Shown here one piece after another: positions 5,561 through 58,179 of a DNA stretch of 64,000 bases. Source of the DNA: Gemmatimonadota bacterium (GTDB lineage Bacteria > Gemmatimonadota > Gemmatimonadetes > Gemmatimonadales > Gemmatimonadaceae); contig JACQBG010000010.1 in assembly GCA_016194585.1 (NCBI GenBank), positions 62,001 through 126,000 of the forward strand. The letters are read 5' to 3'. Under the pieces are notes generated by a model. It worked only from the letters and a program-made list of their open reading frames with translations, had not been told where the DNA came from and did no database searches. The position numbers and the translations under genes were made by a program. Every line of letters starts with the position of its first letter. Position 1 is the stretch's first letter.

Positions 5561-7098
5561 GCGCCGCGCAGCCCCTCGGCGCGCGCGAGGCGCGCCCACG
5601 CACTCTCCGACGGCGCCGTGCCTGCGGCGGCATCACCTGCCCCGCCCGACGCCTTCACTCGCGCACCGCGGTCGTGCTCGGCGATGAGCGCGGCCGCGAT
5701 CGCGACGGCCTCGCGATCGGCGGCCGAGGGCGTCGCCGCGAGCAGCGACGGCAAGCGGCGCTCGAGCCACTGGATCTCGATCGCGCCTCGCTGGAACTCG
5801 TCGTCGTCCATCACGCGCAGGTGGAACTCGCGCGACGTCTCGATCCCCTCGATGGTCAGCTCGCGCAACGCGCGCCGCATGCGCGCCACGGCCTCGCCGC
5901 GCGTTGGTGCCCACACGATGAGCTTGGCGAGCATCGGATCGTAGAACAGCCCGACCTCGGAACCGACCTCCACGCCGCCATCCCATCGCACGCCGGGCCC
6001 ACCGGGCACCTGCAGGTGCGTGATGTGGCCTGTGGACGGGAGGAAGCCGTTCGCCGGATCCTCGCTCGTGATGCGGCACTCGATCGCCCAGCCGTTCGGC
6101 TCGATGGGGCCGAGGGCGGGGAGCCGCTCCCCCGCGGCGATGCGCAACTGCCACTGCACGAGGTCGAGGCCGGTCACCAGTTCGGTGACGGGGTGCTCGA
6201 CCTGGATGCGCGTGTTCATCTCGAGGAAGTAGAACGCGCCGCTCGCGTCGAGCAGGAACTCGCAGGTGCCGGCGTTGACGTACCCGGCGGCGCGCGCCGC
6301 ACGCACCGCGGCTTCCCCCATCCGGCGGCGCAACTCCGGCGAGACGGCGACGCTGGGCGCCTCCTCGATCATCTTCTGGTGACGGCGCTGCACGGAGCAT
6401 TCGCGCTCGCCGAGCGAGAGCACGGTGCCATGCTGGTCGGCGAGCACCTGGATCTCGATGTGCCGCGGCCCCTCGATGTACTTCTCCACGTACACGGCGT
6501 CGTCGCCGAACGCGTTCTTCGCCTCGCGCTTGGCGGCGTCGAGCGCGCCGGCGATCTCCGCCGCGGAGCGGACGACCCGCATCCCCTTGCCGCCGCCACC
6601 GGCCGCCGCCTTGAGCAGCACGGGATATCCGAACCGCGCCGCGACCTCCGCGGCCTCGGCGGCGTCGGTGAGCGCCTCGGTCGTGCCGGGCACGACGGGG
6701 ACGTCGTGCGCGATCGCCAACTGCCGCGCCGACGTCTTGCTCCCCATCGCCGCGATCGCCTCCGCGGGCGGGCCGACCCACACGAGCCCGGCGTCGCGCA
6801 CGGCGCGCGCGAACCACTCGCGCTCGCTCAGGAAACCGTAGCCCGGATGCACCGCCTCGGCGCCCGTCGCCTTGGCGGCGGCGATGATCGCGTCGCCGAG
6901 CAGGTAACTGTGGCTCGAGGGGGGCGGACCGATGCGGACGGCCTCATCGGCTTCGCGCACGTGCGGCGAGGTCGCGTCGGCGTCGGAATAGACGGCGACG
7001 GAGCGGAGGCCGAGCTCGCGGCAGGCGCGCACGATGCGGAGGGCGATCTCGCCGCGGTTGGCGATGATCACTTTCTTGAACGACGAGTGGGAGGGCAA
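5557..7098 (-). CDS. accC: Biotin carboxylase subunit of acyl-CoA carboxylase
   Basis: ATP-dependent carboxylation of biotin on the carrier protein. It has 513 residues: an N-terminal VIIANRGEIALRI domain, an ATP-grasp with the glycine loop KAAAGGGGKGM (~163-173), the catalytic EMNTRIQVEHPVTE (~293-306), and a C-terminal biotin carboxylase domain. The Ala-rich tail after ~460 carries no obvious biotinyl domain, so the carrier is encoded separately. The start is uncertain. The longest frame begins at a TTG (7096-7098) that lies inside a dispersed repeat. A GTG at 7069-7071, directly before IIANRGEIA, would match the usual family start. The carboxyltransferase gene precedes it. Confidence 0.93.
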   Translation of the reverse strand: MPSHSSFKKVIIANRGEIALRIVRACRELGLRSVAVYSDADATSPHVREADEAVRIGPPPSSHSYLLGDAIIAAAKATGAEAVHPGYGFLSEREWFARAVRDAGLVWVGPPAEAIAAMGSKTSARQLAIAHDVPVVPGTTEALTDAAEAAEVAARFGYPVLLKAAAGGGGKGMRVVRSAAEIAGALDAAKREAKNAFGDDAVYVEKYIEGPRHIEIQVLADQHGTVLSLGERECSVQRRHQKMIEEAPSVAVSPELRRRMGEAAVRAARAAGYVNAGTCEFLLDASGAFYFLEMNTRIQVEHPVTELVTGLDLVQWQLRIAAGERLPALGPIEPNGWAIECRITSEDPANGFLPSTGHITHLQVPGGPGVRWDGGVEVGSEVGLFYDPMLAKLIVWAPTRGEAVARMRRALRELTIEGIETSREFHLRVMDDDEFQRGAIEIQWLERRLPSLLAATPSAADREAVAIAAALIAEHDRGARVKASGGAGDAAAGTAPSESAWARLARAEGLRGA

Positions 7099-7182
7099 GG
7101 CGATAGCGGGGGAGGTCGAGTGGGAGTGGGAGCCGAGTGCGAGTGGGACCCGAGTGGGAGTGGGAGTTGAGTGGGAGTGGGA
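7086..7182. repeat. GAGTGGGA-rich dispersed repeat, copy A
   Basis: Positions 7086-7149 align without gaps to 55076-55139, with about 55 of 64 bases identical; differences cluster at 7100-7105. Further GAGTGGGAGTGGGA words follow to 7182. The G-runs at 7156-7158, 7162-7164, 7173-7175 and 7179-7181 fit a three-layer G-quadruplex on the plus strand. The element fills most of the gap between the carboxyltransferase gene and accC and covers the TTG candidate start of accC. Confidence 0.8.
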
Positions 7183-7237
7183 CGTGTGAGGGGGAAGCCG
7201 ATCGGCTCGTGCTCGACTGCCCCTCCCCCTCCCCCTC

Positions 7238-8788
7238 CTACAGTGGAATATTCCCGTGCTTCTTCGGCGGATTCCGGTCGCGCTTCGTCTGCAGCGCCTC
7301 GAGCGCGTCGATGAGTCGCGGGCGGGTGTCGCGCGGGTCGATGATGTCGTCGACGTAGCCGCGGCTCGCGGCGACGTAGGGGTTGGCGAACTTCTCGGCG
7401 TACTCGGCGACCTTCGCGTCCATCGCCTTCGCGGGGTCGTCGCTGTCGGCGATCTCCTTCTTGAACAGGATCTCGACCGCGCCCTTGGGGCCCATCACGG
7501 CGATCTCGGCCGTGGGCCATGCCACGTTGAAGTCGCCGCGGATGTGTTTGGAACTCATGACGTCGTAAGCGCCGCCGTATGCCTTGCGGGTGATCACCGT
7601 CAGCTTGGGGACGGTGGCCTCGCAGTAGGCGTAGAGCAGCTTCGCGCCGTGCTTGATGATGCCGCCATGTTCCTGGGCGACGCCGGGGAGGAAGCCCGGC
7701 ACGTCCTCGAAGGTCACGATCGGCACGTTGAAGGCGTCGCAGAACCGGATGAACCGCGCCGCCTTGAGGCTCGCGCTGATGTCGAGCACGCCGGCGAGCA
7801 CGGCCGGCTGGTTGGCGACGATGCCGACGCTGAAGCCGCCGATGTGCGCGAAGCCGCAGATGATGTTCGCCGCGTAGTCGCGCTGCACCTCGAGGAACTC
7901 GCCGTCGTCGATGATGCGGGCGAGCACGTCGTGCATGTCGTACGGCTTGTTGGGGCTGTCGGGAACGAGGTCGAGCAGCGCCTCGTCACGCCGGTCGCGC
8001 GGGTCGGTGCCGCGCCCGCGGGGCGGCGGCTCGACGTTGTTCGACGGCACGTACCGGAACAGCGTGCGGATCGACTCGAGACACTCGAGCTCGCTGTTGC
8101 TCGTGAAGTGCGAGACCCCGCTCGTCGCGCCGTGCGTGTCGGCGCCGCCGAGCGCCTCCATCGTGACGTCCTCGTGCGTGACCGTCTTCACCACGTTGGG
8201 GCCGGTGACGAACATGTAGCTCGTCCCCTTCGTCATGAACACGAAGTCGGTGATGGCGGGTGAGTACACCGCGCCGCCGGCGCACGGCCCGAGGATCGCC
8301 GAGATCTGCGGCACGACGCCCGACGCGAGCGTGTTGCGCAGGAAGATCTCCGCGTAGCCACCGAGCGAGACGACCCCTTCCTGGATGCGGGCGCCGCCCG
8401 AGTCGTTGAGTCCGATCACGGGCGCGCCGTTCCGCACCGCGAGGTCCATGATCTTGCACACCTTCTCGGCGTGCGCCTCGGAGAGCGATCCGCCGAAGAC
8501 CGTGAAGTCCTGCGAGAAGACGTAGACGAGGCGGCCGTCGATGCGGCCGTACCCCGTGACGACGCCATCGCCGTACGGCCGCTGGTCGGCGAGCCCGAAG
8601 TCCTCGGACCGATGCGTGACGAACCGGTCGAGCTCGACGAAGCTCCCCTCATCGAGCAGGACGTCGAGACGCTCGCGCGCCGAGAGCTTCCCCTTGTCGT
8701 GCTGGGCCTTCAGCCGGGCGGCCCCACCTCCCTGCTCCGAGGCGGCGCGCCGCTGCTCAAGGAGCTGGAGCTTGTCTCGCATGGACAT
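7238..8788 (-). CDS. Acyl-CoA (probably propionyl-CoA) carboxylase, carboxyltransferase subunit
   Basis: Transfers the carboxyl group from biotin to an acyl-CoA. It has 516 residues, the normal length for PccB/AccD-type proteins, with two crotonase-like domains. Signatures seen are [19 protein letters not shown], the oxyanion region [48 protein letters not shown] and [13 protein letters not shown]. The ATG is at 8786-8788, with a second ATG two codons in. It is the first gene of the operon that continues to accC, the methyltransferase and the carrier. Propionyl-CoA is the likeliest substrate from family resemblance, but acetyl-CoA cannot be excluded. Confidence 0.93.
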
Positions 8789-11341: not shown

Positions 11342-11377
11342 CGAGGCATGACGTTACGCGAGGAGCGGAGGGACTGC

Positions 11378-11612
11378 AACAACGCCTCGGATCTCCGCAG
11401 GTACGGCGAAGGGCGAACGACGCCGCGGATGGACGCAGATACCGCAGACGGGAGTTAAAGGCCTTGGGGGAACGACCGCGCGCCCTTCGCGCCGTCGTTC
11501 CCCCAAGAAGCCCTTCCTGTCGTATCTGCGTTCATCTGCGGCGTCGTTCCGCCGTCCCTGCGAGCAACTGCGGCGTCATTCCGCCGTATCTGCGAAGATC
11601 TGAGGCGTTGTT
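11378..11612. repeat. Large nested inverted repeat
   Basis: Three nested arm pairs: outer 11378-11408 with 11582-11612 (28 of 31 complementary), middle 11416-11442 with 11522-11548 (25 of 27), inner 11463-11476 with 11494-11507 (14 of 14). The whole gap between the lipoprotein gene and rpsA could fold into one long imperfect hairpin. It contains no gene. Confidence 0.85.
11463..11507 (-). terminator. Strong hairpin downstream of rpsA
   Basis: Perfect 14-bp stem CTTGGGGGAACGAC/GTCGTTCCCCCAAG with a 17-nt loop, at the centre of the nested repeat. On the minus strand it lies after rpsA and is followed by CCTTTAAC, a weak T-rich stretch. It is a plausible terminator for rpsA. Confidence 0.5.
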
Positions 11613-11646
11613 ATGCCGTCCCTGCGAAGATCCGAGGCGCCGTTAC
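11536..11646. repeat. Tandem 32-bp repeat, about 3.5 copies
   Basis: Units start at 11536, 11568, 11600 and 11632, each exactly 32 bp and built on CTGCGGCGTCGTTCCGCCGT. The last, partial unit runs into the stop codon of rpsA (11643-11645), so repeat DNA forms the very end of the coding sequence. Reverse-complement copies of the same word lie in the left arm of the inverted repeat. Confidence 0.85.
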
Positions 11647-56630: not shown

Positions 56631-57305
56631 TCACACACCCTCGGCGCCGTCGCTCCAGCCGGGGGCCGCCGAACGCCGCTTGCGCGTCGCGCCGGTGCCG
56701 CGCGCGAGCAGCCCTTCGAGCGCCTCCCAGCTGTACACCCCTTGCCGCTCGGCGTCGGCGAGGAGCGCCAGGAGCACTTTCGCGGTCGCGCGCGCGTCGC
56801 CGGCGGCGCGATGGCGGTGCTCGATCGTCACGCCGTAGTGCCAGCAGAGCGCGTCGAGATTGCGTCGCGGCAGATGGCGGAGCAGCCGCCGGGCGAGCCG
56901 CACCGTGCAGAGTTGCGCCGTCGCCAGCGCCTCGAGCGGGTCGCCGGCGTCGAGCGTCGTCGGCACCACGCGCGCGTATTCGGCCGAGAGGAAACTCCAG
57001 TCGAAGCGGGCGTTGTGGGCCACGAACACGCGTCCGGCGAGCTGCTCGGCGAGAGCGCCGGCGATGGCCTCGAAGGGGGGCGCGTCGCGCACCATCTCGT
57101 CGCTGATGCCGGTGAGCGAGGTGATGAACGGCGGGATCTCGCGCCCCGGATTCACGAGGGAATGGAAGGCGTCGTGCACCTCCCCGCCCTGCACCACGAC
57201 GGCGGCGACCTCCGTCACGCGGTGCCCGGCGGCGGCACTGCCACCCGTCGTTTCCACGTCGACCACGACGAACGGGATGGAAGAGAAAGGCGGGTCGACG
57301 AGCAT
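56631..57305 (-). CDS. 3'-5' exonuclease, DEDDh (DnaQ/PolC epsilon-like)
   Basis: 224 residues. The DEDD motifs are intact: VVVDVETTG (Asp, Glu), VAHNARFDWSFL (Asp), and HRAAGDARATAKVLL (His-x4-Asp). HLPRRNLDALCWHYGV is the linker typical of PolC-like proofreading exonucleases. The basic C-terminal tail (TRKRRS) may bind DNA. It may proofread for a replicative polymerase or act in repair. The ATG is at 57303-57305. The gene starts beside a long nested inverted repeat and is divergent from rex. Confidence 0.85.
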   Translation of the reverse strand: MLVDPPFSSIPFVVVDVETTGGSAAAGHRVTEVAAVVVQGGEVHDAFHSLVNPGREIPPFITSLTGISDEMVRDAPPFEAIAGALAEQLAGRVFVAHNARFDWSFLSAEYARVVPTTLDAGDPLEALATAQLCTVRLARRLLRHLPRRNLDALCWHYGVTIEHRHRAAGDARATAKVLLALLADAERQGVYSWEALEGLLARGTGATRKRRSAAPGWSDGAEGV

Positions 57306-57336
57306 TTGGAATCTTACAACGGCGAGGGGGAGGAGA

Positions 57337-57501
57337 GAGGGAAAGGGGGAGGGGGAGGGAGGGACTTCAGGGCACAGGCCACAGCGAAACAGGGGTCAGG
57401 GACGACGAGGGGGAGCGGATCGCATCCCTCTCCTGTTGCCTGAGCCCCCTCTTGCTGTCCGCTCCCCCTGCCGTGTGCCCCTCCCCCTCCCCCTTTCCCT
57501 C
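57337..57501. repeat. Long nested inverted repeat between exonuclease and rex
   Basis: Outer arms 57337-57358 and 57480-57501 are perfectly complementary over 22 bp (purine tract against pyrimidine tract). Middle arms 57370-57379 and 57470-57480 are nearly so. Inner arms AGGGGGAGCGGA (57408-57419) and TCCGCTCCCCCT (57458-57469) are perfect. The order is properly nested, so the 165-bp stretch could form one hairpin or cruciform. No gene is seen in it. Confidence 0.85.
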
Positions 57502-57522
57502 CCCCTCCCCCTCCAGTTTATC

Positions 57523-57540
57523 TTGTGAAATCGTTCACAA
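57523..57540. promoter_or_regulatory. Rex operator (perfect palindrome)
   Basis: TTGTGAAATCGTTCACAA is a perfect match to the Rex site TTGTGAA-N4-TTCACAA. It lies 12 nt before the rex GTG and overlaps a -10-like TATCTT (57519-57524), so bound Rex would block its own transcription when NADH is low. Confidence 0.93.
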
Positions 57541-57552
57541 GCCTGCCCTCCC

Positions 57553-58179
57553 GTGAAACACATCGCAGAATCCACCGTCCGACGGCTGTCCGATTATCTC
57601 CGCTTTCTCGAGGAACTCGAGCAGCAGGGGACGCGCACCGTGTCGAGCGGCGAACTCGCCGCGCTCGGGGGCACGACGTCGGCCCAGGTCCGCAAGGACC
57701 TCTCGTTCTTCGGTTCGTTCGGCAAGCGCGGACTGGGCTACTCCGTCGCGGCGCTCTCGAAGAGTCTGCGCGAGATCCTCGGCCTCGAGCGGCAGTGGCG
57801 GGTCGCCATCGTCGGCGCGGGGAAGATCGGTGGAGCCCTCGCGCGCTACAGCGGGTTCCATCAGCGCGGGTTCCACGTCGTGCACCTGTTCGACGCCGCC
57901 GGCGCGCTCGTCGGCACGGTGATCGACGGCGTGACGGTGAAGGACGAGCGCACGCTCGAAGCGACGCTCGCCGCCGAGCCGGTCGACATCGTGCTCATCG
58001 CCGTGCCGTCGGATGCCGCGCAGGCCGTCGTCGACCGCGTGGTGAAGACCGGGGTGCGCGCGATCCTCAACTTCGCGCCCGTGCCGGTGCATGTGCCGTC
58101 CACCGTCTCGCTGCGGTCGGTGAACATGGCGCTCGAGCTCGAGTTCCTCGCCTACGCGCTGGTGAACCACACGCGCTGA
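57553..58179 (+). CDS. rex: Redox-sensing transcriptional repressor Rex
   Basis: NADH-responsive repressor of fermentation and respiration genes. It has 208 residues: a winged-helix domain (~1-75; VRRLSDYLRFLEELE, TTSAQVRKDLSFFGSFGKRG) and a Rossmann domain (~82-190) with VAIVGAGKIGGALARY. The final helix (ALELEFLAYAL) mediates domain swapping in the dimer. The start is GTG 57553; ATG alternatives would cut the DNA-binding domain. The operator just upstream shows autoregulation. No obvious Rex target operon lies next to it. Confidence 0.96.
   Translation: MKHIAESTVRRLSDYLRFLEELEQQGTRTVSSGELAALGGTTSAQVRKDLSFFGSFGKRGLGYSVAALSKSLREILGLERQWRVAIVGAGKIGGALARYSGFHQRGFHVVHLFDAAGALVGTVIDGVTVKDERTLEATLAAEPVDIVLIAVPSDAAQAVVDRVVKTGVRAILNFAPVPVHVPSTVSLRSVNMALELEFLAYALVNHTR

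Follow-up and report, generated by a model that had tools for sequence, protein, structure and literature searches.

The window analysed here is a stretch of 64,000 nucleotides from a Gemmatimonadota bacterium, whose metagenome-assembled genome comprises 3.34 Mb in 50 contigs and is 98% complete. Towards the end of this window, two divergently oriented genes share a spacer which harbours a 190-bp imperfect palindrome (Table 1). The sequence-only reading had placed this palindrome between the genes of a DEDDh exonuclease and the repressor Rex, just upstream of the Rex operator; both genes are confirmed by their Pfam domains and an operator-like sequence is indeed present at this position. The extent of 165 bp (57337-57501) initially proposed, however, turned out to be too short, as the homologous copies described below place the ends of the element further outward. 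Gene coordinates throughout this work derive from a home-made coding-potential caller, for which the genes expected in the vicinity of the rex palindrome served as the only check and which gave a few doubtful calls on short loci.

Table 1. Features of the exonuclease/rex spacer and two further sites of the same class within the window.
Feature	Position	Strand	Remarks
Whole element, imperfect palindrome, 190 bp, axis at about 57419	57324..57513	.	ends by alignment with four same-genome copies; palindrome score 30
Left purine word, caps the exonuclease gene	57326..57359	+	differs from the 34-bp word at 5 positions, each within the first 11 nt
Right purine word, caps rex	57479..57512	-	exact copy of the 34-bp word
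Interior: type-1 half (CAGGGCACAGGC...GGGTCAGGGACGACGAGGGGGAGCG) and type-2 half	57360..57478	.	common to four other copies
Hairpin tip at the axis	57413..57426	.	GAGCGGATCGCATC here, GAGCGnnnCGCTC in other copies
Rex operator-like TTGTGAAATCGTTCACAA	57523..57540	+	conserved upstream of rex in relatives
rex, redox-sensing repressor	57553..58179	+	Pfam PF06971, PF02629
DEDDh exonuclease	56631..57305	-	Pfam PF00929
Second site of the class: GAGTGGGAG-family left arm and short G5A-type right arm (pyrimidine on +)	7087..7239	.	non-complementary, same polarity
Third site of the class: intergenic palindrome, 261 bp, made from a different word family (GATCTCCGCAG..., with TTGGGGGAACG as its core)	11366..11626	.	

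The palindrome is real and not a product of chance. Its outer arm, originally described as a perfect match of 22 bp, is exact over 23 bp, with 57337-57359 pairing with 57479-57501. A 12-bp inner match also exists (57408-57419 with 57458-57469) and is nested within the outer arm as claimed, but it is centred at about 57438 and hence not coaxial with the latter; in the minimum-energy fold and in the homologues, the inner pairing is a different one. None of 200 dinucleotide shuffles folds as well as the element on either strand, the z-score amounting to -6.0 for the DNA fold and to -7.4 and -6.8 for the RNA folds of the two strands. Folding of the single strands agrees with hairpins, and it is due to this hairpin shape that a search of Rfam returns matches to microRNAs, all of them below threshold. 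A gap-tolerant scan of 264 kb of triplet-shuffled genome sequence revealed no palindrome of comparable score. Purine or pyrimidine tracts of at least 18 nucleotides occur only three times in the window, and two of these are the outer arms of the element.

No consensus sigma-70 promoter was found between 57200 and 57650. As judged by eye, both a -10-like TTATCT at 57518-57523 and the operator are native. On the rex side, the -35 position falls within the pyrimidine arm, upstream of the intact -10-like sequence; on the exonuclease side, where a -10-like TAAGAT is present, the -35 position likewise consists of arm sequence.

A BLAST search of the host genome for copies elsewhere yielded four further full-length copies in addition to partial ones. 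These four are 80-85% identical to the rex-site element and occur in both orientations (as the element is palindromic, BLAST matches appear on both strands). Three further inverted pairs share with it the outer arms only. Splitting each full copy at its tip leads to two arm types, of which every copy carries one each, and two of the five full copies are flipped. This indicates that a palindrome which was already imperfect has been copied as a whole, in either orientation. Homologous arms of different copies are about 0.8 identical, while the two arms of a single copy reach only 0.69; a concerted evolution of both arms of a copy was therefore rejected. Double changes between copies are found at 4 of 78 pairs. 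Changes within pairs are mostly uncompensated and the covariation term is unfavourable, so that no selection for base pairing as such is visible. Compensatory changes being few, selection on pairing was rejected as well.

The conserved unit of the repeat family is the outer 34-bp purine word AGGGGGAGGGGGAGGGAAAGGGGGAGGGGGAGGG, which is built from 6-nt units (GGGGGA/GGGAAA). A pattern search of the genome revealed 33 copies with at most three mismatches, 22 of them exact. The sequence-only reading had named as an argument against itself that an outer-arm match of this kind might be common among random low-complexity tracts; this was checked and does not hold, as the mirror-image control word is found zero times genome-wide. 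A profile built from 17 arms detects at least 28 arms, a count which for diverged arms is a lower bound since the best 150 candidates per genome were scored. The word is organised in eight inverted pairs, solo copies and two short tandems (C18:52593-52662 and on C47), and runs of GGGGACA heptamers adjoin some words only. With its six G tracts it carries at least four on one strand, and a quadruplex pattern is predicted for the G strand of the 5' arm but never for the opposite strand. Among 394 other Gemmatimonadota genomes the word was not found, a single match in one of them (G324) being a plain AGGGGG run. It is present in the genus mate G017, a genome outside this draw. These exact words were not encountered in a search of the literature. 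At one further locus (L238:5372-6242), two facing words are separated by 837 bp, with a small gene between them (5595-6035, minus strand); each word abuts the outer neighbouring gene and not the enclosed one.

A conspicuous property of the word is its orientation with respect to genes. Measured over 30 word clusters, the median distance from the 5' end of the purine strand to the nearest gene is 24 bp, with 13 of these ends within 15 bp, whereas the corresponding values for the 3' end are 173 bp and none. The 5' end is the one closer to a gene in 23 of 28 cases (p = 0.0009). Solo words, which lack a partner, show the same tendency (12 of 16, p = 0.077; nine 5' ends versus no 3' end within 15 bp). 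Among all words at a distance of at most 15 bp, seven cap a gene start and six a gene end. At two hybrid sites, the left word comes from another family and only the right one is of the present type; their halves are non-complementary, and the polarity is nonetheless kept. The polarity at hybrid and solo sites suggests that the palindrome is best seen as two facing caps, one for each flanking gene. Three of the eight inverted pairs, the rex site included, are located between divergent genes, these numbers being small. We consider it very probable that the element belongs to a repeat family whose 34-bp word, present here as the outer arm, is strictly oriented with respect to genes. A general GC-skew polarity of all spacers was examined and rejected, as it is mild in this genome and absent in the palindrome-poor genus mates G006 and G016. 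We would further like to mention that the site at 7087-7239 precedes a gene which, as judged by eye, is accC-like; at the junction, this gene seems to lack its usual ATG start.

Two word sites have an orthologous counterpart in G017 (neighbouring genes named by eye). At the site between hslU and an argF-like gene, where the flanks are 86% identical, the word is almost unchanged. The flanks of the other site, between a sigma-factor-like and a beta-lactamase-like gene, are about 80% identical; here about 40 bp of the left outer arm show no difference, whereas the palindrome interior is unalignable. Upstream of rex, G010 and G012 harbour a different large palindrome, which is of the CCACGGATTTCGCGGAT type, and G015 yet another, while none is present in this position in G006, G008, G005, G014, G016 and G004. 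Comparison of these sequences indicates that words turn over and that the site upstream of rex is re-used.

Large palindromes were also encountered close to rex in other genomes. In another species, a near-perfect palindrome of 262 bp made of GTGGGAG words, with a fold of about -210 kcal/mol, lies directly 3' of rex (L128:1232-1493, equal to L041:1343-1604). The strongest one found, with a score of 77, occupies the same position in a more distant relative (L101:3632-4026); it spans 395 bp and is built from CACGGA words. Several soil Gemmatimonadota (L060, L064, L082, L099 and L103) carry palindromes near rex which consist of GGAATGC or GGAACGC heptamers; these genomes apparently have the words in common.

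The element had also been suspected to be the relic of a mobile element. It does belong to a family dispersed over unrelated sites, but neither a target-site duplication nor a REP-type transposase, a reverse transcriptase or a partner element was found. Plasmid and phage collections contain no match to it, and an origin by reverse transcription was rejected as no RVT_1 domain was found in the genome. Still to be weighed is a MITE-like non-autonomous transposable element, whose terminal inverted repeats would be the outer arms and which would be moved by a transposase of the host. The size of about 190 bp, the conserved ends enclosing a variable interior, the terminal inverted repeats themselves and the presence of whole copies at unrelated sites in both orientations all agree with such an element, and DDE transposases do exist in the genome. 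The inspected transposase loci, however, do not carry the word as a terminal repeat; at one of them (L195) a solo half-element is situated about 0.8 kb away and does not form a flanking pair. Moreover, no target-site duplication above the null expectation is found in the eight inverted pairs, words occur solo and in tandem, and a transposon is not obviously a source of a fixed polarity towards genes. We consequently regard a MITE-like element as unlikely.

We are equally doubtful about a neutral origin, in which slippage and template switching would generate purine words and palindromes while selection merely removes those in the wrong orientation, for instance where a Shine-Dalgarno-like GGAGG would arise in front of a start codon. 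The tandem words, the adjoining heptamer runs and the fast turnover of the interior are what such a process would leave behind. Yet 22 exact copies, together with an arm of about 40 bp unchanged across species, exceed what would be left by drift, and the polarity is also present at gene ends, for which a Shine-Dalgarno effect should be of no importance.

Still less probable is a transcription terminator or stabiliser of mRNA 3' ends, i.e. a hairpin selected as RNA. While the RNA folds are very stable and several copies abut stop codons, no intrinsic terminator (a stem-loop followed by a U tract) was found at the element, and the compensatory pattern is absent. Family sites do not avoid divergent spacers, and the rex-site copy itself resides in one; as neither of the two divergent transcripts should contain the element, an RNA hairpin role is improbable there. 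Finally, a REP/REPIN system (PMC3116915, PMC2817692), in which solo words would be REPs and inverted pairs REPINs mobilised by a RAYT, shares the intergenic location and the solo and inverted-pair organisation but is hardly credible, since the Y1_Tnp domain is absent from the 98% complete genome while control genomes do give matches, and since the 34-bp word is not itself a short palindrome and its arms are not REP hairpins.

The explanation we consider best, and to which as a whole we would give an even chance, is that the rex-site element belongs, as one of the paired members, to a dispersed family of intergenic repeats which is homogenised by recombination and may act as a barrier at gene exits. 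The word is placed with its 5' end against a gene boundary, be it start or stop, and with its 3' end pointing into the spacer. Where a word is present at both flanking genes, the two face each other and, together with the intervening sequence, form a long nested palindrome. Copies would be spread and kept alike by recombination rather than by a known transposase, presumably through ectopic copying or conversion between sites which share the outer arm, a process which could also flip the interior. As the most likely function we tentatively propose a bidirectional gene-exit barrier. RNA leaving a gene, either in sense past the stop or in antisense past the start, would at once become G-rich; this would favour R-loops, quadruplexes or, at paired words, a giant hairpin, and might thereby limit read-through into the neighbouring gene.

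The polarity is not restricted to the 34-bp word. In a survey covering about 860 kb of this genome, with contigs selected in part because of known hits, and almost 1 Mb of sequence from relatives, 40 intergenic palindromes reached a score of at least 22. In 30 of the 32 which do not belong to the 34-bp-word family, the G-rich arm comes first. The same applies to 28 of 30 which lack a quadruplex motif in either arm (p ~1e-6, the palindromes not being fully independent because word families recur). Quadruplex formation can therefore not be the common cause of the polarity. Likewise, A comes first in 26 of 29. The few weak palindromes found inside coding sequences of this genome show mixed polarity, and 400 kb from the genus mates G006, G016, G004 and G003 contain no intergenic palindrome. 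Possibly, a rule independent of the particular sequence governs the intergenic palindromes of these bacteria: a gene would be left by a purine-rich strand and the next gene entered by a pyrimidine-rich one, whatever the word. Such sites would constitute a general class of gene-boundary insulators with fast-changing words and preserved polarity, the quadruplex repeats known from Xanthomonas and Nostoc being only one of its forms; we put this forward with considerable reservation.

The 261-bp palindrome at 11366-11626 folds, with its flanks, at about -210 kcal/mol, and its core TTGGGGGAAC recurs in palindromes of G010, G012 and G015. Loss of SbcCD as a reason for the survival of palindromes was rejected, as an SbcD-like protein is encoded in 18 of 18 genus genomes, including those without a palindrome in the sampled stretches.

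Comparison with known systems was made after the analysis of the repeat itself. The closest resemblance is to the quadruplex-forming intergenic repeats GGGAATC / GGGGA(C/T)T of Xanthomonas and Nostoc described by Rehm et al. 2015 (PMC4692102). These lie 28 nt from the gene at their 5' side versus 160 nt from the downstream gene, whatever the gene direction, and often occur in facing pairs; their functional role “still remains to be elucidated”. Both families are G-rich, intergenic, dispersed and variable in sequence between close species, both are polarised towards genes by similar distances, and the sequence pattern of at least four G tracts on one strand is shared by the 34-bp word. In contrast to the heptamer arrays GGGNATC / GGGGAYT, however, the present family has a fixed word of 6-nt units and forms nested 190-bp pairs with a shared interior. 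Furthermore, the known repeats are under-represented between divergent genes, where three of eight pairs, albeit few in number, are located here, and here, in another phylum, the polarity extends to palindromes without quadruplex motifs. BoxC, the intrastrand triplex motif TMECO of E. coli (PMC4666352), resembles the present family as a purine-rich intergenic repeat of about 35 nt with 23 copies, sometimes in inverted pairs and without a tie to mobile elements. It differs in that hairpin and third strand are combined in one unit without strand-orientation bias, and its published consensus has no match in the 64-kb window. The intergenic TAACTGA heptamer repeats of Beggiatoaceae and cyanobacteria (PMC4679880) are also short words near genes with a patchy distribution among bacteria, but consist of a different word arranged in direct repeats and not in large palindromes.

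What polarised G-rich intergenic repeats do was not settled in 2015, when quadruplexes were the main suspect. With a second case at the level of a phylum, in which the word is different but the polarity is the same and is also found in non-quadruplex palindromes, the question shifts from quadruplexes to the asymmetry of strands at gene exits, purine coming first. Upstream of rex and comparable genes, long palindromes may be replaceable boundary parts rather than operators.
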